64,000 nucleotides of DNA from Gemmatimonas phototrophica (GTDB lineage Bacteria > Gemmatimonadota > Gemmatimonadetes > Gemmatimonadales > Gemmatimonadaceae): assembly GCF_000695095.2 (NCBI RefSeq), contig NZ_CP011454.1:124001-188000 (forward strand), read 5' to 3'. This document shows, one piece after another, positions 51,354-64,000 of this stretch. The position numbers and the translations under genes were made by a program. The notes under the pieces are model-generated. The model did not search any database and was not told the DNA's origin. It worked only from the letters and a program-made list of their open reading frames with translations. Position 1 is the stretch's first letter. Each line of letters opens with the position of its first letter.

Positions 51354-51923
51354 TCATTTCGTGGTCGGCGCGAGCAGCGTCTGCACCCCCTTCACAATTT
51401 CATCGGCGGTGGCTTCGTACGGGAACGTGAGCCGCACGGTGCCCTGCTGGTCGAGCACATACAACGACGTGGAGTGCGTGACGCTGTATTTGGCGGCCGA
51501 CTCGGGGGTAGGGACGATCTTGTACGACGCGCCGTACTGTGCCACTACCGAGTCGATCTGTGCCCGTGTGCCGGTGAGCCCCAGCGCATCGAGGCTGAAC
51601 AATTCCAGATCTGCCTTGAGTACCGCTGGCGTATCGCGATCAGGATCGACCGTGACGTACAGCGTTTTCACTTGCGCGGCGCCCGGCCCCAATCGGCTGG
51701 CCACCGCCGACAGCTTGGACAGCGTGGTGGGGCAGACATCGGGGCACATGGTGTAGCCGAAGAACAGCATGACCACCTTGCCTCGCTGCGAACTGAGCGA
51801 GAACGGCGCGCCGGTGTGATCGGTGAGTGAGAAGTCCCCGCCAGCAGGATCGTCGCCTTTGCTGCAGGCGCTGAGCCCGGCACTCAGCGCCAGCGCCACG
51901 GTGAGAAATGCGCGTCGCCGCAT
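51354..51923 (-). CDS. SCO1/SenC copper chaperone lipoprotein
   Basis: 189 residues. Lipobox LSAC (Cys20). Thioredoxin-like fold with the copper-binding CPDVC (Cys60, Cys64) and His150 in YSVTHSTS. It delivers Cu to the CuA site of cytochrome c oxidase or reduces its cysteines. The ATG overlaps the stop of the PCuAC gene by one base. Last gene of the copper operon; it ends 110 bp after the TonB receptor operon begins on the same strand. Confidence 0.93.
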   Translation of the reverse strand: MRRRAFLTVALALSAGLSACSKGDDPAGGDFSLTDHTGAPFSLSSQRGKVVMLFFGYTMCPDVCPTTLSKLSAVASRLGPGAAQVKTLYVTVDPDRDTPAVLKADLELFSLDALGLTGTRAQIDSVVAQYGASYKIVPTPESAAKYSVTHSTSLYVLDQQGTVRLTFPYEATADEIVKGVQTLLAPTTK

Positions 51924-52393
51924 TACATGCCGCCCATCTTGCGGACCGTCGCCACCACCGGCACGCGGGTGCCGTCATCGAGCGTGAGCTCGACTCGCAC
52001 GGTATCGCCGGGCACCAGCGGCTTCTTGAGACCGAACAGCATGAGGTGCAGTCCGCCCGGACGGAGCTCCACCTGTCCGTTGGCCGGCACCGCGATGCTC
52101 TTCACCGGCGACATCTGCATCATGCCACCGTCGCGCTTCATCTCGTGCAGTTCCAGCGTATCACCAACACTGGCCTTGCCGCTCACGATGGTGCGTGTGG
52201 TGGCCCCTGCGTTCTGGACCGTGAGGAACATGCCGGTCACCGCCCGCCCGGCCGGTGCTTCGCGTACCCACGCATCGCGGGCGGTAACAACCGTGGTTTG
52301 TGCCAGCACTGTTGATGCCCCAGTGTGCATGGTTACAAGCACCAGGGCCGGGATGATCAGGGGCAAAGAGATGCGGCGAAACAAGCCGTTCAT
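51923..52393 (-). CDS. PCuAC copper chaperone
   Basis: 156 residues with a signal peptide ending near VLAQ. The Cu(I) site is intact: His83 and Met85 (ELHEM), Met94 (MMQM) and His116/Met118 (GGLHLML). It belongs to the PCuAC family, which delivers copper to the CuA centre with SCO1. It overlaps the fusion gene upstream by 4 bases and the SCO1 gene by one base, a compact copper-delivery operon. Confidence 0.93.
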   Translation of the reverse strand: MNGLFRRISLPLIIPALVLVTMHTGASTVLAQTTVVTARDAWVREAPAGRAVTGMFLTVQNAGATTRTIVSGKASVGDTLELHEMKRDGGMMQMSPVKSIAVPANGQVELRPGGLHLMLFGLKKPLVPGDTVRVELTLDDGTRVPVVATVRKMGGM

Positions 52394-53247
52394 GGAGTAA
52401 CCTCACTGGAGAGTGGAGTGCCACGCAGCGATACGATGTACATACCGATCGCGAGTCGTTGATTGTTGGTGAGATGTGCGTACAGCGGCATCGCGCCGCC
52501 GTTGGGAATACCGGTGGCCAGTGTCTGGGCAATCGCCTCTGCCGTGGTGCCATTGCGAAACGCCTGCACCATCCGAAAGTCGCGGGGGGGTGGCACCAGC
52601 GTACGCCCAACTGGACCGGTTCCATCGCCAGCCAGACCATGACACGCCGCACAGCCGTTGCCTTTGAACAACTGTTCACCGGTGGATATCGAAGGGGCGG
52701 TTTCCGACACGGTCGCCACCACGGATGCCGGTGCAAGTGACAGCGCCGAATCGAGATCGCTGTACGACACAACACGCGCCACGGCAGAGCGCGACCACGC
52801 GTTGGACAGTCGTACGACAATGCGCACCGAATCACCACGGGTGTGAGGCGTGGCCAATCCGTCCACCGAAACGGTGTAGCCGCCGGGGGCGAATCGCACG
52901 GCGCCACCGGCGGGAACGACCACGCCCGCAAGAGGTGACATCATCGCGGTGGCTCCCCGCATCGCGCTGGCGCTCGGCATACGATGCGCGGTGACCGACT
53001 GCAGGGTGGTACCAGACGCGCCTTCGACGTCCACACGAACCACCTGCAGCTCAATGGCGCTGGTATTGCGCACCGTCATGTATACCGCCGCTGGCATCCC
53101 CCCCGTTGGTAGCGTGAGGACCGCCTGCTCAATCTCCAGGACGCGCGTTTCCGTGCCGCACGCGCTCAGCAGCAGCGTGATGCCGACGGTGGCCACCGCA
53201 CGGAACGCACCAAGATTGACGAGGCCCAACAGAGACCCGCGAGGCAT
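52390..53247 (-). CDS. PCuAC-like lipoprotein fused to cytochrome c
   Basis: 285 residues from the ATG at 53247. Lipobox LLSAC (Cys30). A PCuAC-like domain (about 35-150) is followed by a class I cytochrome c with CAACH (199-203) and the Met in GGAMPLYAHL. In the first domain the copper site is incomplete: HRM (88-90) and MM remain, but the second His-x-Met is replaced by GGYTVSV. It probably passes electrons or stabilises a partner rather than binding Cu(I) strongly. First gene of the copper operon. Confidence 0.88.
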   Translation of the reverse strand: MPRGSLLGLVNLGAFRAVATVGITLLLSACGTETRVLEIEQAVLTLPTGGMPAAVYMTVRNTSAIELQVVRVDVEGASGTTLQSVTAHRMPSASAMRGATAMMSPLAGVVVPAGGAVRFAPGGYTVSVDGLATPHTRGDSVRIVVRLSNAWSRSAVARVVSYSDLDSALSLAPASVVATVSETAPSISTGEQLFKGNGCAACHGLAGDGTGPVGRTLVPPPRDFRMVQAFRNGTTAEAIAQTLATGIPNGGAMPLYAHLTNNQRLAIGMYIVSLRGTPLSSEVTP

Positions 53248-53279
53248 ATACCCTGAAGCTACCTGCGCGGTTTTCCGCT

Positions 53280-54248
53280 TCAATCGGGCATTGGCTGACA
53301 ACGGACCAGCAATTCCTCCAGCTTGTCGAACGACCCCGTCCACCCCTGTGTCATGCCGCCACGCTCGGCGATAAAGGCGGCAATTTCCTCTGGCGTCGCA
53401 TGGCCGTGCGGGTTCCAGCGAACGGTTACCCGTGTTTGTGTCGGCCCTTCCTCAGTCAGCTGCACCAACGTGCGCATCGTCTCGGGCCAGACCGGTGCGC
53501 CAGGGTGACGCGACATCTGCTCGTGTTCGTCGGTGAAGCACTGTGTGTACTCCAAGCGATGCGGCGCCTCCACCGCGAGATACTCCACGCGGCCGTACAT
53601 CGTAAACGCGCCGTTGGTCATGGCGTAAAAGCCATCGCCGCCAGGGGCGATATTGATGCGATGGAACTCCATGGAGAATTCCGTGGGCGGCAGCCACTGC
53701 GCAAAGTGCTCCGGCTGCGTCCACATCTCCCACACGATCGCAATGGGCGCGTCAAAGCTGCGATTGATCACGAACACATCGGCGCCCGACACCGTCTTCT
53801 CGAGATGTTCGCCTAGACGATCCCACGTGCTATTGCCACCAGCCGCTTTGATGAAGCCGCGCGTTTGCTGTGCCTGCTCCGGCGTGGCGAGCGTCATGCA
53901 CAGCTCCAGCTGCGTGCGTTCACCGAGGTCGTGAAAGTCCACCGTCACGCGGAAGAGCGGTGCGCTGTCGGCGGCTGAGGCGCCGTGATCGTACACCAGT
54001 CGCTTCTGTGGCTCCACCACGTGATAGCGCGTGAAGTTGGGCCAGTCTTTGCCGTCGGGACCGTGCATGGTGTATACCCACGTGCCATCCACCCGCAGCT
54101 CCTTGCTGTGGGTGGTGATGGTAAAGCCACGCGGTCCCCACCACTGCGCCACCTGCGCCAGATCGGTCCACGCGTCCCACACCAGCGCGACGGGTGCGTC
54201 GTAGACGCGGGTGAGGCGAATGTCGCAGCTGCTATCGGCTGACGTCAT
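53280..54248 (-). CDS. Tandem AHSA1/SRPBCC protein
   Basis: 322 residues with two SRPBCC/AHSA1 domains: about 8-150 (VYDAPVALVWDAWTDLAQVA, WWGPRGFTITTHSKELRVDG) and 155-320 (RSFDAPIAIVWEMWTQPEHF, AQWLPPTEFSMEFHRINIAP). Both have the deep ligand cavity of the START-like fold. Single-domain relatives accompany ArsR regulators, as here; a double copy in one chain is a duplication. It overlaps the ArsR gene by 17 bases. Ligand unknown. Confidence 0.9.
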   Translation of the reverse strand: MTSADSSCDIRLTRVYDAPVALVWDAWTDLAQVAQWWGPRGFTITTHSKELRVDGTWVYTMHGPDGKDWPNFTRYHVVEPQKRLVYDHGASAADSAPLFRVTVDFHDLGERTQLELCMTLATPEQAQQTRGFIKAAGGNSTWDRLGEHLEKTVSGADVFVINRSFDAPIAIVWEMWTQPEHFAQWLPPTEFSMEFHRINIAPGGDGFYAMTNGAFTMYGRVEYLAVEAPHRLEYTQCFTDEHEQMSRHPGAPVWPETMRTLVQLTEEGPTQTRVTVRWNPHGHATPEEIAAFIAERGGMTQGWTGSFDKLEELLVRCQPMPD

Positions 54249-54639
54249 CGGGGTGGCTCGGGGTGGGGGTGGGGGTGGGGGTGGGCGTGGGCGTGGTCAC
54301 GGGAGCTGTGACTTGGGCTGTGACGGTCTTGAGGTACTCGCCCAGGCGATCGAGGCTCGCTTCCATGTGGGCGCGATACTCGTCCATCCAGGCGGCGGCG
54401 TCTTTGAGCGGCGCGGCGTTGAGCGTGCAGGGGCGCCATTGGGCCTCGCGCCCTTTGGTGACGAGCCCGGCCCGCTCCAGCACCTTGAGGTGCTTGGTGA
54501 CTCCCGGGAGCGTCATCTGCCCCAGAAACGGCTCGGCGATCTGGGTGACACTGGCCTCCCCCTGCCGCAGGCGCGCCAGGATGGCGCGGCGGGTGGGGTC
54601 GGCGAGGGCGGAGAAGGTTTGGCTCAGCGTGTCCTGCAT
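54232..54639 (-). CDS. ArsR-type regulator with a Pro-Thr tail
   Basis: 135 residues. Winged helix: FSALADPTRRAILARLRQGE, VTQIAEPF and MTLPGVTKHLKVLERAGLVT, a standard ArsR of the AHSA1-linked type without cysteine metal ligands. After about residue 108 the protein ends in a (PT)-rich tail encoded by a hexameric repeat. It probably represses itself and the AHSA1 gene through the palindrome at 54642. Confidence 0.9.
   Translation of the reverse strand: MQDTLSQTFSALADPTRRAILARLRQGEASVTQIAEPFLGQMTLPGVTKHLKVLERAGLVTKGREAQWRPCTLNAAPLKDAAAWMDEYRAHMEASLDRLGEYLKTVTAQVTAPVTTPTPTPTPTPTPSHPDDVSR
54260..54285 (+). repeat. Hexamer repeat with G-quadruplex potential
   Basis: GGGG, three runs of GGGGG and a GGG separated by single T bases on the plus strand. 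This encodes the Pro-Thr tail of the ArsR protein on the minus strand and overlaps the end of that gene just before the AHSA1 start. The single-base loops make a stable quadruplex on the template strand plausible. Confidence 0.75.
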
Positions 54640-54765: not shown

Positions 54766-56127
54766 ATGCGCCTGCGAAGCTTGCTGACACGCCCAAAACT
54801 GGCCGCACTGCTGCTGCCAGCGGCCGGTGCTGCCGCCCTGCTGTTTTCGCCCGCCGGCAAGCTGCCGGCCAGTGCTCGCTGCTCATTGGCGCCTGGTGGT
54901 ACGATGGCGTTGCTCAAGGTCGAGCGAGACACCCTGTTGCCATTGACCGAGTCGCGTCAGTCGCCCGTCTTCTCAAGTAGCGCGCCGGCCGGTGGCCGCG
55001 GCGAAATGACCGACACCATGATCATGCCGGCGGCGCGGGTGCGGCTGCTGAACGTGGATGATGTCACGCGCGCCGCGTTCACCGCGGCGGGGATTTCGGA
55101 CACGCAGCCGCACGCGTATATCGTGGCCGCACCGTATGGCGCCGACTGCCGCACCATTCCGTGGTCGGACACCGTGACCTTCGCCGTGCCAGGCGAAATT
55201 GGTTATGTGCGTGCAACGCTGGCGGCGCGGGATCGCTGGATCGGGAACGTGCCCGTGCTCGTCATCCCCGACTACTGGAACTATCCGTATCCACGGCGCG
55301 GTCGCCCGTATGGTGTGCCGGTCAATGCGCCGCTCGCGCCCGCTGCCGCGATGTTTGATGCGCAGCGTCTGCTGCATCGCCCGTACTACACCACACGACC
55401 GTCGCCGTCGGAGATTGATGCCGCGGGTGGCGAGCGTGGCGCGCGAGCCATGGACTGGGCGCGCAGCAATCTCCAGCACGCCGAACTGGAACCGATCCGC
55501 ACGCTTGTGCGCGATGCTGTGTTGGAAACCGATTGGCGCGTCGCTCAGCGCACACCCAGTCAGCTGCGCGGTACATACCGTGTTGAGCTGCACGCCGACA
55601 CCACGACGTACACATGGTACTTTCGCACGCAGCCGCAGCTTGCCTATCGCTGGGACGGGGAGAGGCAGCGTACCACAGCGGAGCTGCTTTCATCTCCGCA
55701 CATTGGCGGCTACCGCATGGTGGGGTATGCCGCCGAGTCGCTGTCGGCGCTGACTGGTGATCCGGGCAGCGGGAGCAATCGTCGACCATTGGTATGGCTT
55801 GTCGTGAACGACCGTCCCACCACGCCCGGCAATGAGGCGCGGCGGGAGTTCACCGGCGTGCTGGAGTTCATGCAGAGCGCCACGGCCGAAGCGGCGTGGG
55901 ATGCACTGGCGCCGTTCACGCCCCCGCTGAGCGTCGCGGACAGCACGATGCTGGCCCGCATGGGGCGCCCCTTGCCACGCGGCAACCGGCAGCCGCGGTT
56001 GCCAATCACCGTGCAGCTTGGTGCCAATGAGAGCGTGCGTGCCGACAGCACGTGGGTGACCGCAGGCCGTCGCTTGCGGGTGGTGCTGACGCGAGTGGAT
56101 ACCACGACCACCCGCCGCACGTTCTGA
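54766..56127 (+). CDS. Secreted protein of unknown function
   Basis: 453 residues. The N-terminus MRLRSLLTRPKLAALLLPAA with following hydrophobic stretch is a signal or anchor. The mature part is rich in strands (TYRVELHADTTTYTWYFRTQ, MVGYAAESLSAL, ITVQLGANESVRADSTWV) and Arg/Thr, without recognised motifs. It looks extracytoplasmic. It diverges from the ArsR gene and shares its repeat-rich promoter, and is followed 82 bp later by the triple-fusion kinase gene in the same direction. Confidence 0.75.
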   Translation: MRLRSLLTRPKLAALLLPAAGAAALLFSPAGKLPASARCSLAPGGTMALLKVERDTLLPLTESRQSPVFSSSAPAGGRGEMTDTMIMPAARVRLLNVDDVTRAAFTAAGISDTQPHAYIVAAPYGADCRTIPWSDTVTFAVPGEIGYVRATLAARDRWIGNVPVLVIPDYWNYPYPRRGRPYGVPVNAPLAPAAAMFDAQRLLHRPYYTTRPSPSEIDAAGGERGARAMDWARSNLQHAELEPIRTLVRDAVLETDWRVAQRTPSQLRGTYRVELHADTTTYTWYFRTQPQLAYRWDGERQRTTAELLSSPHIGGYRMVGYAAESLSALTGDPGSGSNRRPLVWLVVNDRPTTPGNEARREFTGVLEFMQSATAEAAWDALAPFTPPLSVADSTMLARMGRPLPRGNRQPRLPITVQLGANESVRADSTWVTAGRRLRVVLTRVDTTTTRRTF

Positions 56128-56209: not shown

Positions 56210-59119
56210 ATGACCGACATTGCCAGCCGGCTGGGCGCTGCCCTTGCAGAACGTTACGAGATTGAGCGGGAGCTGGGGCACGGGGGTATGGCCACCGTGC
56301 ATCTGGCGCGCGATATCCGCCATGGTCGTACCGTGGCCATCAAGGTGTTGCGCCCCGAGCTTGCCCAGGCGGTAGGTGCGGCGCGTTTTCTGCGGGAGAT
56401 CAACATCGCCGCGCAGCTGCAGTCGCCGCACATTCTGCCGCTGCTCGATTCGGGGGAGGCGGACGGGCTTCTGTACTACGTCATGCCGTACATCGAGGGC
56501 GATTCACTGCGTGGTCTGCTCGCCAAGGAGGGCACGCTGGCGCCGTCGGACGCAGTGCGTCTGTTGCGCGATGTGGTGGACGGGTTGGCCCACGCTCACC
56601 GTGCTGGCGTGTTGCACCGTGACATCAAGCCAGACAATGTCATGATTGCCGATCGGCACGCGTTGCTGGTGGACTTTGGTGTGGCCAAGGCCATGCGCGA
56701 TGCCACGAAGCAGCACGATCTCACCAGCATCGGCTTTTCGCTTGGCACCCCGAGCTACATGGCGCCGGAGCAAGCCGCCGCCGACCCCCTCATCGATCAT
56801 CGTGCCGACATTTATTCAGTTGGCGTGATGGCGTATGAAATGCTGTCGGGTACCCTGCCGTTCACCGGTGCACCACAGGCCGTCATGGCGGCGCATATCT
56901 CCAAAGCGGTTCCGCCGCTGCTCACGGTCACGCCGCATGTCCCGCCTGCGCTGGCGCAGCTGATCATGCGCTGCCTCGAGAAGGATCCGGCGTTGCGCTA
57001 TCAGTCGGCAGCAGAACTGCTCGAGGCCATGGAGTCGCTGGCGACGCCATCGATGTCCACCGTGGTGTCACGACCTCCGGCCGCTCGCCGCTCACGCATG
57101 GTCTTGCTGGCCGGAATGGGAGTGGCCCTCGTGGCCGTGGCAGGCTATTTCGGAACGGCGGCGCTGCGTCGCGACCAATGGGTGAACAGCACCGGCAAGC
57201 CCATGCTGGCGCGGTTGATTGAAGCCAGCGATATCGACAGCATCGTGACTGTCGCACTCGAAATTGATCGTATTGCGAAGAACGATTCCGTCACGGCGAG
57301 TTTGCCGGGATTTATGGTGCGTCGTGCGGTGATAACGACCATGCCGGCCGGCGCGACGGTCTGTCGCGCCTCGTTTGCCGATACCACGCAGTGGCGATGC
57401 CTCGGCACCACCCCCACCGATTCCGTGTGGTTGCCGAATCGTCCCGGATTGTTCCGGTTTCAGAAGACGGGTTATCGCACCACCTATCGCGTGGAGGGGC
57501 CGCGACCCGCGCTCGTCCCGCTCGATAGCGCGTCGGCTCCGCACGCGGAAATGGAACGGATTGCCGCCGGGAACTTCGACACCTTTCTGGTAGGAACCGA
57601 CGGGAATCCGGAGTTGCCCTTGGGCGAATTCCGGCTCGACCGCTTTGAAACATCCAATCGTCAGTACAAGGCGTTTGTCGACGCCGGCGGCTATCGGGAC
57701 TCGAGCTACTGGGAGCATCCGTTTCGCGAGGATGGTACCGCGCTCTCGTGGGCGCAGGCCATGGCGAAGTTCGTCGATCGCAGTGGACTTCCTGGGCCGG
57801 CAACATGGGAAGGTGGCGACTACCCGGCGGGGAAGGGCGATTTCCCCGTGGGTGGTGTAAGCTGGTACGAGGCCGCGGCGTTCGCGAAGTTCGCCGGCAA
57901 GTCGTTGCCGACGCTGTATCACTGGGCCCGGGCCGCCAGTGTATACCAATCGCGCTTTGTGGTGCCGTACAGCAACCTCGAAAGCAAAGACGCACTGCCG
58001 GTTGGCACACTGCGCGGCGTGAGCTGGGCTGGTGTGTCCGATATGGCCGGCAATGTGCGCGAGTGGTGCTTCAACGATGCGGGCGCGAGTGGCCGGTACA
58101 TTCTGGGCGGCGGGTTCAGCGATGCGACGTATTCGTTTGTGGATGCGTACGCACAGCCTCCCATGAGTCGTGCGGCCATCAACGGTTTTCGCCTCGCACT
58201 CTACGCGCCCAACGAACCCAGTCTCGCCGCCGCATCGGCACCCATCTCACGCGCGGTGACCGACTATGCCAAGGAAACCCCGGTATCCGCGGCGATCTAC
58301 GCCGCCTACCTGCCGCAGTTCGACTACGACAAGAGTGCGCTCAACGCCAAGGTGGAACAGCGCGATACCACGCCGGAGAACTGGATTGTTGAGCGGGTGA
58401 GTTTTGATGCCGCGTACGGTGGGGAGCGCATGGCGGCGTGGATCTACCTGCCCAAACGCGCGACCCCGCCGTATCAGACCGTCGTGATGTTTCCGGGATC
58501 GGGGTCGATTGGAGCGGCGCCCAGCACCAGTACACCCGATACGCGGATCAGCTTTTTGCCGCAGGCCGGTCGTGTGGCCGTGTTCCCGATTTTCAAGAGC
58601 ATCCACGAGCGAAGCGACAGCCTGCGCAGCGACATCCCCGACCGCTCCATCTTCTGGCGCGATCACGTGATCATGTGGGTCAAAGACTATCGCCGTACGC
58701 TCGACTACCTGAGCACGCGGGCCGATATCGACAGCACGAAGTTAGCCTATTTCGGCTATAGCTGGGGTGGCAACATGGGTGGGATCATTCCTGCCGTCGA
58801 ACCGCGCATCAAAGCGAGCATGTTGTACGTCGCCGGCTTGACCATGGAGCGCAGTCGACCGGAAGTGGATCCCTTCAACTATCTGCCGCGCGTGACATCG
58901 CCGGTGCTGATGCTCAACGGCAAGTACGACTACTTCTTCCCGTCGGAAACGGCGCAGAAGCCGTTCTACCAACTCCTGGGCTCTCCGGCGGCCGACAAGA
59001 AATACAAGGTGTACGAAGGTGGTCATGATGTGCCGCGCACCGAATTGATCAAGGAATCCCTGGCGTGGCTGGACAGGTATCTGGGGCCGGTGTCCAGCCG
59101 GTCACCTGGACGGCGCTAA
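56210..59119 (+). CDS. Ser/Thr kinase fused to FGE-like domain and alpha/beta hydrolase
   Basis: 969 residues. Kinase 16-275: HGGMATV loop, Lys45 (VAIK), HRDIKPDN (Asp138), DFG Asp155 and GTPSYMAPEQ. A membrane helix at about 297-316, then a PEGA-like stretch (370-435). Next a formylglycine-generating-enzyme/SUMF1-like domain (about 448-665: VGGVSWYEAAAFAKFAGKSL, DMAGNVREWCFND, ILGGGFSD). A dienelactone-hydrolase-type alpha/beta domain ends the protein (about 725-958) with Ser851 in FGYSWGGN, Asp907 (KYDYFF) and His939. All three sets of catalytic motifs look usable. The FGE and hydrolase parts would face the periplasm. Confidence 0.92.
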   Translation: MTDIASRLGAALAERYEIERELGHGGMATVHLARDIRHGRTVAIKVLRPELAQAVGAARFLREINIAAQLQSPHILPLLDSGEADGLLYYVMPYIEGDSLRGLLAKEGTLAPSDAVRLLRDVVDGLAHAHRAGVLHRDIKPDNVMIADRHALLVDFGVAKAMRDATKQHDLTSIGFSLGTPSYMAPEQAAADPLIDHRADIYSVGVMAYEMLSGTLPFTGAPQAVMAAHISKAVPPLLTVTPHVPPALAQLIMRCLEKDPALRYQSAAELLEAMESLATPSMSTVVSRPPAARRSRMVLLAGMGVALVAVAGYFGTAALRRDQWVNSTGKPMLARLIEASDIDSIVTVALEIDRIAKNDSVTASLPGFMVRRAVITTMPAGATVCRASFADTTQWRCLGTTPTDSVWLPNRPGLFRFQKTGYRTTYRVEGPRPALVPLDSASAPHAEMERIAAGNFDTFLVGTDGNPELPLGEFRLDRFETSNRQYKAFVDAGGYRDSSYWEHPFREDGTALSWAQAMAKFVDRSGLPGPATWEGGDYPAGKGDFPVGGVSWYEAAAFAKFAGKSLPTLYHWARAASVYQSRFVVPYSNLESKDALPVGTLRGVSWAGVSDMAGNVREWCFNDAGASGRYILGGGFSDATYSFVDAYAQPPMSRAAINGFRLALYAPNEPSLAAASAPISRAVTDYAKETPVSAAIYAAYLPQFDYDKSALNAKVEQRDTTPENWIVERVSFDAAYGGERMAAWIYLPKRATPPYQTVVMFPGSGSIGAAPSTSTPDTRISFLPQAGRVAVFPIFKSIHERSDSLRSDIPDRSIFWRDHVIMWVKDYRRTLDYLSTRADIDSTKLAYFGYSWGGNMGGIIPAVEPRIKASMLYVAGLTMERSRPEVDPFNYLPRVTSPVLMLNGKYDYFFPSETAQKPFYQLLGSPAADKKYKVYEGGHDVPRTELIKESLAWLDRYLGPVSSRSPGRR

Positions 59120-59126
59120 GCGTTGT

Positions 59127-60248
59127 TCAGGAGGCAGGCGGCCCACTCAAAAACGCGTCTGCCGGGCTGAGGAGCACCCCCGGCGCGAAGCCGAGCAGCA
59201 ACAGCAGCAGAATGAGCATGGCCGCCACCACGCGCTCGCGCGTGAGCAGATCGGGGGCGAGCGATGGCGTACCGCGCCCCAGAAAGACGGTGGAGTACGT
59301 CATGAGCGTGGCCACGGCGAGGAAGGCGCTGGAGAGAATCATGGCCACGGTGCTCGTGGGACTCTCCATCCACAACGTGTGCAGCAACAGATCGTCGGCC
59401 ACAAAGCCGGCCATGCCGGGCAACCCCACACCCGCGCCACCAAAGAGCGCAAAGGCAGCGGCCAGCACGGGAAACGCCGCCACGCGCCCGCCGCGCCCCA
59501 CAAATGACACCGCACCCACGCGCGATTCGAGGGCACTCGTCATGATGCCCAGTCCGCCAAGGGCCAGCCCCATGGTGACGGCCACCAGCAGTGCCGCGCC
59601 GAAGTTGCCAATGCTGGCCGTGCCCAGCGCTGCCAGCAACATGCCGCCGTGCATGGCGGTGGTGCCGCGTACAAAGCCGCGCAGATCACGCTGCACCAAG
59701 GTAATGAGGGCTGCCCCCATGGCCGCGCCGGCGCCAATGCGCACCAACCAGGGCGCCGCCTGAATGGCCACGTTGTGGTGATCGACGAACCGCAGATGCA
59801 CAAACACCAGCGCAATGAGTGACGCCATCTGCTGTGTCTGCACGAACGGCGCGCGATCATTGAGCGCCGCCACGCCCACATGCAGCGGCATGACACCGGC
59901 GCGCAGAGCAATGGCGACTCCCGAGAGCGCCAGCGCCACGCTCATATGGTCGCCTCCTACCGCCACTGATGCGCCGATGGCAAGGATAGCCGAGAGCACC
60001 AGCATCACGCCGCCGGTTCGCGTGGCGGACCACGCCGTCGCGGCATGCATGAGCGCACTGGCCGCCACGGCCGCGTAAGCTACGGATCCATTGCCCGCAA
60101 AGAGTGCCACCGCTTGCACGACCATGAGCGACAACAGCATCCACGTACGATGACGTTGCGGCTGCGCCACCACCGGGGCCGCGCTCAACAGTGCGCACAC
60201 CAGCAATGTCTCCCACGGCGCCGAGACCGTACTCGTGAGATCCATCAT
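59127..60248 (-). CDS. Second antiporter-like membrane subunit of a Dab-type operon
   Basis: 373 residues with about 11 membrane helices. GVMPLHVGVAALNDRAPFVQ, then SLIALVFVHLRFVDHH correspond to the proton-translocating core of NuoL/M/N-type subunits, but it is shorter than NuoM or NuoN. It overlaps the DabB-like gene by 4 bases, so the two membrane proteins are made together. A second subunit of this kind is not part of the described two-component DabAB complex. Confidence 0.8.
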   Translation of the reverse strand: MMDLTSTVSAPWETLLVCALLSAAPVVAQPQRHRTWMLLSLMVVQAVALFAGNGSVAYAAVAASALMHAATAWSATRTGGVMLVLSAILAIGASVAVGGDHMSVALALSGVAIALRAGVMPLHVGVAALNDRAPFVQTQQMASLIALVFVHLRFVDHHNVAIQAAPWLVRIGAGAAMGAALITLVQRDLRGFVRGTTAMHGGMLLAALGTASIGNFGAALLVAVTMGLALGGLGIMTSALESRVGAVSFVGRGGRVAAFPVLAAAFALFGGAGVGLPGMAGFVADDLLLHTLWMESPTSTVAMILSSAFLAVATLMTYSTVFLGRGTPSLAPDLLTRERVVAAMLILLLLLLGFAPGVLLSPADAFLSGPPAS

Positions 60249-61591
60249 GACGCCGATGACGTGGACGATGCATCTGTACCCGTCGCCTGCGGGACATCGG
60301 CCGAGCAGACCCGCCGCCAGCTACGATCGGCCCGATCCAGCAGGCGCGCAAAGCCCATGAGTGGAGCCAGCAGCCTATCGATGAAATCATCCAGCCGCAG
60401 CCGATGCAACGACGCCGCATACACGCGCGCCGACAGCGACGGCGACAGGCGATCGAGCCACGTGGGGTGACGAGGCACATGTCCCAGCCGGTGGCTGTCG
60501 TGAATCATGTTGGGCGCCTTGAGGTACTGTCCAAGACGCAACAGCGCATGACACACCAGATGCGCCAGCGCGAGCGTGGTCCACCCCATGCCGATCTCGG
60601 CAAGAATGAGCCCCACCTGCGCCAGCGTCGCGTGGGCCAGCGCCCCCTTGGCATCGGTGTGCACGCGCACCACGGCCGCCGCGTAGAGCGCGGTACTGAG
60701 CCCTACCACCACCGACATGGTGCGCGCAATGACTGACGTTTCAAGCACTGGCCACACGCGCAGCAACAGAAACAATCCGGCGTGAATGGACACGGCGCCG
60801 TAGAACAGCGCACTGGAGGGCGTGGGCCCTTCCATGGCGCGCGGCAACCATCCGGAGAAGGGGAGCTGCGCCGACTTGCCCATGGCCGAAAGCAAAAATA
60901 GTAGGGCAATGGCGGTAGACTGCACCATGGGTAGCGCCGCCGCCCCCGACATGGCGGAGAAGCGCGCGGAGCCCAACAGCTCGAACGTGGCCACGGTGGC
61001 GATCAGCAGCCCGGCATCGGAGAAGCGATAGGTGGCGAATGCGCGCACCGACGAGCGCACGGGTTCATCACGCTCGTGAAAAAAGCCAATGAAGAACGCC
61101 GACGAAATGCCAATGAGCTCCCACCCGGCGAAGAACAGCTCCAATGCCCCCGCCAGTGCCACCAGCTGCGTACCCGTGGCAAACACGCCAATGAGCGTGA
61201 AGAAGCGCGTGAAGCCTGGCTCCTTGTGCAGATATGTGCGGGAGAAGCGTGCTACCAGCGCCGTGAGCACGGCCGCGAAGAGCGCAATGGTCACCGAAAT
61301 GCGATCAACCAGCAGTACGGCGGGAATGCGGAAGTCGCCAATACGCAGCCAGTCGCCAAACTCGACGTCACCTCGCACGGCGTCGCCACCGATGCCGAGA
61401 AACCCCGCAGTCACCGCGACCACCGACGCGATGGATATCATGAGGCCACTGTTCACCACGCGCATGACCCACCCTTCGCGTACGGGCGCCCGCCGCAACA
61501 GCACGCGCGCGCCTACCAGCACCACGCTGCACAGCGGCGCCAGAATGGCGAGGGCAAGCCCCCAGCGAACCATCAGCACGGTATTACTCAT
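60245..61591 (-). CDS. dabB: DabB-like proton-conducting membrane subunit (NuoL-type)
   Basis: 448 residues from the ATG at 61591 (61603 is also in frame), about 13 membrane helices. KSAQLPFSGWLPRAMEGPTP followed by SALFYGAVSIHAGLFLLLRV is the NuoL/MrpA-type proton-channel core with its lysine and histidine. In the DAB system DabB supplies proton-motive force to drive CO2 hydration by DabA. It is 9-22 bp downstream of dabA. DabA precedes DabB here, the reverse of the order usually described. Confidence 0.88.
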   Translation of the reverse strand: MSNTVLMVRWGLALAILAPLCSVVLVGARVLLRRAPVREGWVMRVVNSGLMISIASVVAVTAGFLGIGGDAVRGDVEFGDWLRIGDFRIPAVLLVDRISVTIALFAAVLTALVARFSRTYLHKEPGFTRFFTLIGVFATGTQLVALAGALELFFAGWELIGISSAFFIGFFHERDEPVRSSVRAFATYRFSDAGLLIATVATFELLGSARFSAMSGAAALPMVQSTAIALLFLLSAMGKSAQLPFSGWLPRAMEGPTPSSALFYGAVSIHAGLFLLLRVWPVLETSVIARTMSVVVGLSTALYAAAVVRVHTDAKGALAHATLAQVGLILAEIGMGWTTLALAHLVCHALLRLGQYLKAPNMIHDSHRLGHVPRHPTWLDRLSPSLSARVYAASLHRLRLDDFIDRLLAPLMGFARLLDRADRSWRRVCSADVPQATGTDASSTSSAS

Positions 61592-61612
61592 GGTACCATT
61601 CACGGCGAGTGC

Positions 61613-64000
61613 TCATGCTGGCTGATGGTGTCCGGGGCCCACGGCAGCAAAGGGCAGCGCCCGCCGCACCAGCGCCGGCGCCAGATGTCCGCGGCTTTGC
61701 ATGTGCCACTCCGGCGATCTCTCCACCACCGGCAGCAGCATGGGCTGCGGTTCGTACGGCACAAAGCCGCCGTCCTGAAAGAGCTGCATGGCACCGGTCT
61801 CGGGATGCACCGACACCAGCTGAATCCACTGCTTCACCACCAGCTCGGCCACCTCAGCCTGTCGTCCGGCTACGGTGAGCAGCGCTTCCGGTGTGGCGTC
61901 TACAATGAGCAACAGACGCATGGGCTCATGGATCTCCACCATCTGCCGCGGCAGCCCTGTGCGCAGATCGCTCTGGTGGCCGTTCATGACACCAATGAGC
62001 CCCGTCACATTATGCGGCAGTTTGGTGCCACAGCCAAACGTCTCGTTGTCCACCGAGGAGAAGTAGTACTCGAGGCTGATGCCCGCGCCCACCGGCCCGA
62101 CCGCCGCCAGAATGCGCTCGAGTACTTTGTCATCCTGATCGATCGTGGAGTCGTAGCTCACCAGAAAGGCGCGACGGTCGAGATGCAGCCCGCGCGTGAG
62201 CGTACGGGGCCCCACAATACAGATGGCGTTGGTGCAGTGTCCGTATTCCGGGCGCGGCTGCGCCAGGTGCGATGACCGTGCTTCCACGTGACGCAATGCG
62301 CCCTCAGCGGTAATGCTGAGCGGCGCGTCGTCGAAGCGCCGACACCGTTCCTGCGCATCATCGCGCCGCGCCAGCTCAAGCGCGCCGTAGACCTCCTGAA
62401 AGGCGCCCGCCAACGCGGCGGGCAGTGTTTCGAGATCGTAGTAGCGCACACTGTCGTTGGCGGTGTCGTGCAGTGCGCCAATGAACCAGGTGTCGGCGGG
62501 AATGGTGATGCCTCGTTGGCGCACGCCGTCACGCACGTCGGGGCGATTGGCCATATCGGCAAACACGCGCGCATTGGCGCCGCCACGACGTCCGCCGCAG
62601 GCGCCGCAATCATGCGCCGACTCATGCGGGTTGTTGAGACTGGTGGAGCCATGGCCGAGGAACACCACAATGGGCGCGAAGTCCCGCACGAGGCCCAGGT
62701 TGGTGAGGACGGCGGTCACGCGATCCACGGATTCGTCGAGCGAAAAGCCCACGGGTTTCTCGCCGGCGTCCATGCGTGCGCTGTCGCTGACCCGGAACGC
62801 GGAGACGCGCGTGGCTGGCACCGGTGCCAGTCGCGAGACCAGCCGTTGGCCCCACTCCAGCGACGAGCGTGGGGCGGCAACTCGGGCCAATGTTTTGAGC
62901 CCGGACAACGGCCCGAGGAGGAAACTCAAGCCGGCACCACCGGTGAGGGTGCGCGACGCGACCGCCGCACGACGTTCCCACCCCAGCCAGCGTTCGCGCG
63001 CGCGGGCCCGCAATGCATGCGTCCCAAGCGCGGTATACACAGGGCGCTCGTGCACTTCGTGCGCCGGCGTGACCACCACCGGGCAGTGCGCCGCCGGCGC
63101 GTGGTCATCGAGCCCCATGTAATCGATGGCTACGCCAAAAAAGCCAGCGGTGCCGTAGGTGATGTATCCGGGGTGCTGTTCTTCCAGGGCGCGCCGAATG
63201 GATTCTTCGCGCTCGTCGATGCAAAACACGAACTGCCCGCGCGGCCGTTCGGCGGAAGGCGTCTCGGCGGGCAGTGCCCGTCGCGCCGCCATGGCGTCGA
63301 GAATGACCGTGCGGTACGCGCGTTCGTACGCCTCCTGAAACAGCTGCCGGCGCACCATGCCACTGCACGTTGAACACTCGTGCCACAGCGCACCGAGCGC
63401 GTCGCCGGTGAGCGACTGCACGTCGGTGGCTGTGAGCTGGGCGGCACGGGCAATCTCCCAGAGCAGTCGCGCATCCAGGAGCGCCGGCCGCGCCGGGGGC
63501 GCTGGTGTACGGGACTGCAACGCCGCCCATTCGTGCGGAAGGCCCGCCTGCGTGCACTGCTGCTGCACCGCGTGCCATTCGAAGAGCAATCGCACGGCCA
63601 GAAAGTCTTCGAGTGACACCGGGGTGCCAGACGGATGCTCTTCGGGGTGTCGTTCCAGACGCGCAAACATGCCGCTCCAGCCTGGCAGGGCGAGTGCCGT
63701 TGCCACCAGAAACGGTTCGATGGCGGCCCCAGTGACACCGAGGAGCGCCAGCATGCGGTCAATCACGGAGCGCGCCGATTCGTGGGTCGCGGCCACGGTG
63801 CGCATGGCATCGTCTACCCCGCGGCAGGCACGCGGCGGCGCGGCGCCTACCCCGTACGTCTGCGCCACCGCGTTCAGAAATCCCTGCTCGCAATAGGGGG
63901 CCGCAACCTGCGCCTGTCCCTGATCCAAAAATCCCGACGCCAGGCGAATGAGTTCACCGTGCACGGCGATGTCGGTGTCCGGCTGTCCGTGCGATACCAG
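61613..64000 (-). CDS. dabA: DabA (UPF0753/DUF2309) inorganic-carbon uptake subunit, partial
   Basis: The frame is open to the window edge, so the N-terminus is missing; at least 795 residues are visible. Zinc-site motifs of the beta-carbonic-anhydrase-like core are present: FVFCIDEREESIRR (Cys and Asp) and FLGHGSTSLNNPHESAHDCG, continuing CGG (His and Cys). DabA with DabB turns CO2 into bicarbonate in a vectorial, energy-driven way, letting cells concentrate inorganic carbon. First gene of the three-gene operon on this strand. Confidence 0.93.
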   Translation of the reverse strand: MVSHGQPDTDIAVHGELIRLASGFLDQGQAQVAAPYCEQGFLNAVAQTYGVGAAPPRACRGVDDAMRTVAATHESARSVIDRMLALLGVTGAAIEPFLVATALALPGWSGMFARLERHPEEHPSGTPVSLEDFLAVRLLFEWHAVQQQCTQAGLPHEWAALQSRTPAPPARPALLDARLLWEIARAAQLTATDVQSLTGDALGALWHECSTCSGMVRRQLFQEAYERAYRTVILDAMAARRALPAETPSAERPRGQFVFCIDEREESIRRALEEQHPGYITYGTAGFFGVAIDYMGLDDHAPAAHCPVVVTPAHEVHERPVYTALGTHALRARARERWLGWERRAAVASRTLTGGAGLSFLLGPLSGLKTLARVAAPRSSLEWGQRLVSRLAPVPATRVSAFRVSDSARMDAGEKPVGFSLDESVDRVTAVLTNLGLVRDFAPIVVFLGHGSTSLNNPHESAHDCGACGGRRGGANARVFADMANRPDVRDGVRQRGITIPADTWFIGALHDTANDSVRYYDLETLPAALAGAFQEVYGALELARRDDAQERCRRFDDAPLSITAEGALRHVEARSSHLAQPRPEYGHCTNAICIVGPRTLTRGLHLDRRAFLVSYDSTIDQDDKVLERILAAVGPVGAGISLEYYFSSVDNETFGCGTKLPHNVTGLIGVMNGHQSDLRTGLPRQMVEIHEPMRLLLIVDATPEALLTVAGRQAEVAELVVKQWIQLVSVHPETGAMQLFQDGGFVPYEPQPMLLPVVERSPEWHMQSRGHLAPALVRRALPFAAVGPGHHQPA

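Follow-up and report, generated by a model that had tools for sequence, protein, structure and literature searches.

The gene at 56210..59119 (+) of the window, by which we mean the whole 64,000 nt stretch of DNA that was analysed, encodes a 969 aa protein that we read as a one-piece transmembrane receptor working from the outside in, and not as an enzyme controlled by its kinase. The direction of signalling is inferred, and we give this reading a probability of roughly 0.6. Among the relatives of this protein, the outer module stays nearly constant while the inner head is exchanged.

According to the ORF listing of the window, the reading frame starts with ATG and is uninterrupted for 969 codons. 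It encodes a kinase, a transmembrane helix, a linker with a PEGA-like domain, an FGE-fold domain and an alpha/beta hydrolase, in this order. The original prediction took this for a real fusion within a single ORF and named a joining of separate genes as its possible flaw. In some related loci the hydrolase gene stands apart from the kinase-FGE gene, which would speak for a joining of genes by a sequencing error or a missed stop codon. Against this, full-length fusions with conserved junctions are present in many independent genomes and phyla, and the host genome is complete, a single contig of 4.72 Mb. We rejected a fusion by sequencing error because the same architecture recurs independently, and the chance of an artefact is negligible.

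A search for the triple architecture, as originally proposed, found full-length fusions in many genomes from at least 12 phyla. In the scan of named genomes, fused relatives outside Gemmatimonadota were present in Bacteroidota, Acidobacteriota, Planctomycetota, Verrucomicrobiota, Myxococcota and Pseudomonadota, and further in Latescibacterota, Zixiibacteriota, Calditrichota, Ignavibacteriota, Rhodothermota and Fidelibacterota. The named records are almost all metagenome bins, with Eudoraea adriatica DSM 19308 as the cultured exception; bins can misassign contigs, and placements in a single phylum are therefore less certain than the overall spread. At E 1e-10 the outer half has matches, some of them partial, in 89 of the 395 Gemmatimonadota genomes; at E 1e-60 it is present in 33 of 297 Acidobacteriota and 5 of 395 Bacteroidota genomes. 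Its distribution is patchy, mostly with one copy per genome, and within the genus of the window's own genome it occurs in 3 of 30 genomes. In one locus of this genus (L051, 2585-4484, -) the fusion copy is apparently decayed and split across two ORFs. Another locus (L076, 5659-10644) has a single ORF of 1661 aa that combines a membrane domain, TPR repeats, a kinase and the whole outer module.

The kinase, predicted to be cytosolic, comprises aa 16-271 (56255..57022, +) and is of the PknB-like Hanks type (Pfam Pkinase, E 1.6e-50; PknB structures, 4e-53). The catalytic lysine (VAIK, K45), E63, HRD138, DFG155 and APE187 are all present and are conserved in the relatives, in agreement with the claim of an intact kinase. 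As to the PknB/Stk1 PASTA subfamily, the Pfam scan found no PASTA repeat in the protein, and model NF033483 was matched by the kinase part alone with 289 bits against a cut-off of 450. The whole protein used as query gave 46 matches in the same genome. The 45 outside the gene were confined to the kinase part and represent a large Ser/Thr kinase repertoire. A single transmembrane helix follows at aa 297-315 (57098..57154, +) as the sole hydropathy peak above 1.6. The hydropathy scan found no second hydrophobic helix in the 969 aa, the C-terminal half included, so that one membrane helix separates the kinase from the outer domains, as had been stated.

We modelled the outer half (aa 321-969) with AlphaFold2 on an alignment of 58 related sequences. 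The structure prediction called for originally thus gave a model with a mean pLDDT of 93.7 and a pTM of 0.91, which consists of two main helices, a PEGA-like beta domain, an FGE fold and a CE7-like alpha/beta hydrolase. The first two of these elements had been overlooked in the earlier domain list, which was otherwise correct in naming kinase, helix, FGE and hydrolase. The helices form a juxtamembrane linker (aa 322-363; 57173..57298, +) in a region common to all head types. The PEGA-like domain (aa 370-429; 57317..57496, +) gave no Pfam PEGA match in the window protein and is named from the beta strands of the model and from matches in relatives, which are above cut-off in L133 and weak in others.

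The FGE-fold domain (aa 446-666; 57545..58207, +), similar to C-type lectins, matches Pfam FGE-sulfatase over aa 472-622 (E 1.3e-19). Among re-scored Foldseek matches it is nearest to the FGE-like domain of EgtB, with a Z score of 23.1 that, like all Z scores given here, speaks for fold and not for function. The EgtB-type NCBIfam models are matched by the FGE part alone and far below cut-off. Unlike EgtB, the window protein has no domain of the DinB type, which in EgtB and OvoA carries the iron-binding histidines; the Pfam scan gave no DinB match. SUMF1/FGE and lectin-like variable proteins share the fold, but the window protein does not have the cysteine pair of FGE. The two copper-binding cysteines of FGE are Cys336 and Cys341 in human numbering. 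When the sequences are matched manually at the GG motif that they share, the corresponding positions of the window protein are D638 and F643. Across the 117 relatives, with the window protein counted among them, cysteine occurs at neither position, and the first is Asp or Glu in 110 of them. We therefore call this part an FGE-fold domain rather than an enzyme. An active FGE was rejected because both catalytic cysteines are missing in all 117. The fold of the FGE/SUMF1-like domain proposed originally was thus confirmed, and the label of a three-enzyme fusion was dropped. Judged by its residues, the protein would be better called a kinase and a hydrolase with a lectin-like fold between them. For other bacterial systems, a role of FGE-fold domains as lectin-like sensors has been proposed (PMC8195603).

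The alpha/beta hydrolase occupies aa 682-960 (58253..59089, +). Pfam models of this superfamily (PETase, DLH, Abhydrolase_1) match weakly over aa 822-958 (5e-6 to 1e-3). The best fold match was to CE7 acetyl xylan esterases (Z 25.7, rmsd 2.8, 265 residues, 17% identity), and for the CE7 acetyl xylan esterases and cephalosporin C deacetylase overall, Z was about 25 with 262-271 aligned residues and 16%-20% identity. This is the closest solved fold, and the likeness includes part of the N-terminal extension. The CE7 enzymes differ in being free and soluble, at 17% identity, and are not parts of receptors. Pfam AXE1, which marks CE7 membership by sequence, had no match in the window protein at E 0.01 and weak ones in some relatives.

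Together with the CE7 fold, the domain has the complete Ser-Asp-His triad that had been claimed, with Ser851 as nucleophile (GYSWGG; 58760..58762, +), Asp907 as acid (58928..58930, +) and His939 as base (59024..59026, +). We counted its conservation across 117 relatives, window included. Among the sequences reaching the respective position, Ser is kept in 116 of 117, Asp in 116 of 116 and His in 114 of 115, and R801 is invariant (117/117). Loss of the triad in homologues, which had been named as a result that would speak against the idea, was hence not the pattern found. This near-invariance argues that catalysis, or at least acylation, matters, and the hydrolase module probably cleaves an ester-bearing ligand. 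A protein from Sedimentisphaerales (L140, 980-4678) has lost both Ser and His and represents a natural hydrolase-dead version.

Some relatives have the hydrolase as a separate gene. Genomes G327, G185, G271, G225 and G020 each have a kinase-FGE gene with a hydrolase gene behind it in the same orientation, at an intergenic distance of -4 to +25 nt in the cases with an unambiguous start. In G081, G149 and G297 the separate hydrolase gene accompanies an anchor-FGE gene. All these separate hydrolases are matched by the fused-hydrolase profile at 1e-34 to 1e-40, and they have the N-terminal extension of the fused form, the ER motif at R801 and the triad. Several of them start with a signal peptide that was evident by eye. 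The split hydrolases support both that the hydrolase lies outside the cytosol and that the two parts belong to one function. An extracytoplasmic location of the fused hydrolase, as originally assumed, is thus supported by comparison of sequences. In locus L044 (1747-3684, -), and likewise in L045, one kinase-FGE gene is followed by two tandem hydrolase genes.

The type of head could be read in 110 relatives with a readable N-terminus. A kinase was present in 83 of these. Three proteins (L101, L133, L158) have a class III nucleotidyl cyclase head (Guanylate_cyc, 1e-12 to 1e-14), and L107 has a TIR head by Pfam (TIR_2, 1.4e-23). The heads of L102, L105 and L109 obtained no class from the Pfam or PDB profile searches; TIR domains were the top Foldseek matches of a low-confidence model (pLDDT 68), and we call these heads TIR-like only. 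A CadC-type winged-helix head was found in L136 and L153 (Trans_reg_C, 1e-15 to 1e-16), with L207 as a further winged-helix-headed match found by BLAST, and a SARP/BTAD head in L073 and L096 (BTAD, 9e-14 and 6e-11). The remaining type, 16 of the 110, is a membrane anchor of 2-4 predicted helices without a recognised cytosolic output. Signalling heads are therefore present in about 85% of the labelled relatives.

On a maximum likelihood tree of the outer module the head label switches 15 times, the least possible number being 5. The tree comes from a quick search and has many weak forks, which makes the 15 changes approximate; even if only the starred branches are counted, the kinase label must change at least 8 times, and cyclase and TIR heads both fall inside one fully supported clade. 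Exactly one helix was predicted in all proteins with cyclase, TIR, winged-helix or BTAD heads and in 74 of the 83 with a kinase head. Among the kinase-headed exceptions, 5 have no helix and 4 have at least two; some of these ORFs were truncated or lengthened by the start codon chosen. Where a helix was found, the last one lies about 160 aa before the FGE domain (group medians 157-164).

The exchange of heads bears on the direction of signalling. The original prediction had suggested that phosphorylation inside controls hydrolysis outside, for instance if the kinase phosphorylated itself or the juxtamembrane region and so switched the extracytoplasmic hydrolase on or off. The kinase is the commonest head and has conserved catalytic residues, and the triad is conserved as well, which would suit such a control. 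The same module is, however, also found with DNA-binding, cyclase or TIR heads and on anchors that lack any kinase, and a DNA-binding head has no means of controlling the hydrolase in this way. We consider such inside-out control improbable. The other wording of that prediction, in which phosphorylation inside reports hydrolysis outside, may hold. Sensing from the outside in is favoured because a head that binds DNA can act only as the recipient of a signal, and the cyclase, TIR and kinase heads are outputs as well. It is likewise favoured by the arrangement of a constant module behind exchangeable outputs, which is the pattern by which RsbQ-PAS was identified as a sensing module.

Alternatively, the outer module could be an ordinary extracytoplasmic esterase with the FGE fold as a lectin-like accessory for substrate binding and the head as a loose passenger. 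The 16 of 110 anchor-only versions keep this alternative alive, and the separate secreted hydrolases at the split loci and the CE7 deacetylases as closest fold also agree with it. We nevertheless consider it rather unlikely: a signalling head is present in about 85% of the labelled relatives, every swapped head is a signalling output, and the distance to the helix stays constant. On the anchors, the module may also serve simply as an enzyme tethered to the membrane.

The gene neighbourhoods gave few indications. A co-oriented ECF-sigma-like gene, assigned by eye, precedes kinase-headed copies in L122, L156, L159 and L163, which is compatible with a transcriptional output of these copies. No conserved neighbour that would point to a substrate was found across the loci of the relatives. 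Genes of a serine beta-lactamase-like family occur in 12 loci, recognised by eye, at varying positions and with their background frequency uncounted. None of the neighbours in the window recurs beside relatives. The upstream neighbour on the same strand (54766-56127, +), a 453 aa protein without a Pfam family, is absent there. Downstream, 59127-63964 (-) contains a gene for a DabA-type inorganic carbon transporter (Pfam, 3e-210) and then two separate Proton_antipo_M ORFs on the same strand, and reads as a Dab-like set whose NuoL-like subunit is divided. At 52390-53343 (-) a PCuAC copper chaperone domain is fused to a cytochrome c domain, with a second PCuAC gene adjoining (51923-52393), and at 53280-54248 (-) a tandem double AHSA1 protein is adjoined by an ArsR-type regulator (54232-54639). 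The lack of a consistent substrate among the neighbours, the 16 anchor-only relatives and the triad loss in L140 are the points against the receptor reading.

If the protein is a receptor, the outer module of helical linker, PEGA-like domain, lectin-like FGE fold and CE7-type esterase would bind an ester-bearing ligand, the FGE fold presumably making the contact, and would probably cleave it. The resulting change in the module would pass through the linker and the single helix to the cytosolic head. A Ser/Thr kinase head would report it by phosphorylation; in other relatives the same module on a nucleotidyl cyclase, TIR, winged-helix or BTAD head would lead to other outputs. The CE7-like and lectin-like folds suggest an acylated carbohydrate as ligand, which is a guess, and our guess is also that hydrolysis triggers or resets the signal.

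In RsbQ-PAS systems (Bacillus subtilis RsbQ-RsbP and relatives) the triad of the hydrolase is needed for signalling, and the sensing module occurs with swapped outputs (PMC3183031). The window protein and its relatives resemble them in a triad-bearing hydrolase partnered with a sensory domain on alternative outputs. RsbQ, though, is a cytosolic protein of its own whose partner is a PAS domain, while the hydrolase here is fused, is predicted to be extracytoplasmic and has an FGE-fold partner, and the outputs here are Ser/Thr kinase, cyclase, TIR, winged helix and BTAD. Pfam scans found no PAS domain in the window protein or its relatives. Fusions of Ser/Thr kinases with FGE/DUF323 (NirV), for example in chlamydial kinases, are already known, as had been noted, with no mention of a hydrolase (PMC1262709). 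Like our protein, they have an FGE fold behind a Hanks-type kinase within a single chain; the window protein has in addition a PEGA-like domain and a complete CE7-like hydrolase outside the helix. The full-text literature searched, which mostly leaves out subscription journals, held no report of the triple fusion or of the head swapping. Modular receptors with swapped outputs are thus a known kind, and this sensor module is undescribed in the literature searched.

The plant hormone receptors D14 and KAI2 are triad-bearing alpha/beta hydrolases that serve as receptors. They are soluble and have neither a membrane helix nor a fused output, so the comparison with the window protein is an analogy only. 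We tentatively propose, at lower confidence than the receptor reading itself, a widespread receptor class with a catalytically competent extracytoplasmic esterase on a lectin-like FGE fold, in which ligand binding and hydrolysis would drive interchangeable outputs and which would be the membrane-spanning counterpart of the hydrolase-type hormone receptors. To our knowledge, it is not known for most bacterial Ser/Thr receptor kinases which signal they sense. Because the same outer module is connected here to five or more kinds of output, a ligand identified in a member whose output is easy to follow, such as the cyclase of the cultured Eudoraea adriatica or a winged-helix protein, may also apply to the kinases. 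Few receptors built from a triad-bearing alpha/beta hydrolase are known, and the present one would be a further case, in which the hydrolase is fused and the protein spans the membrane.
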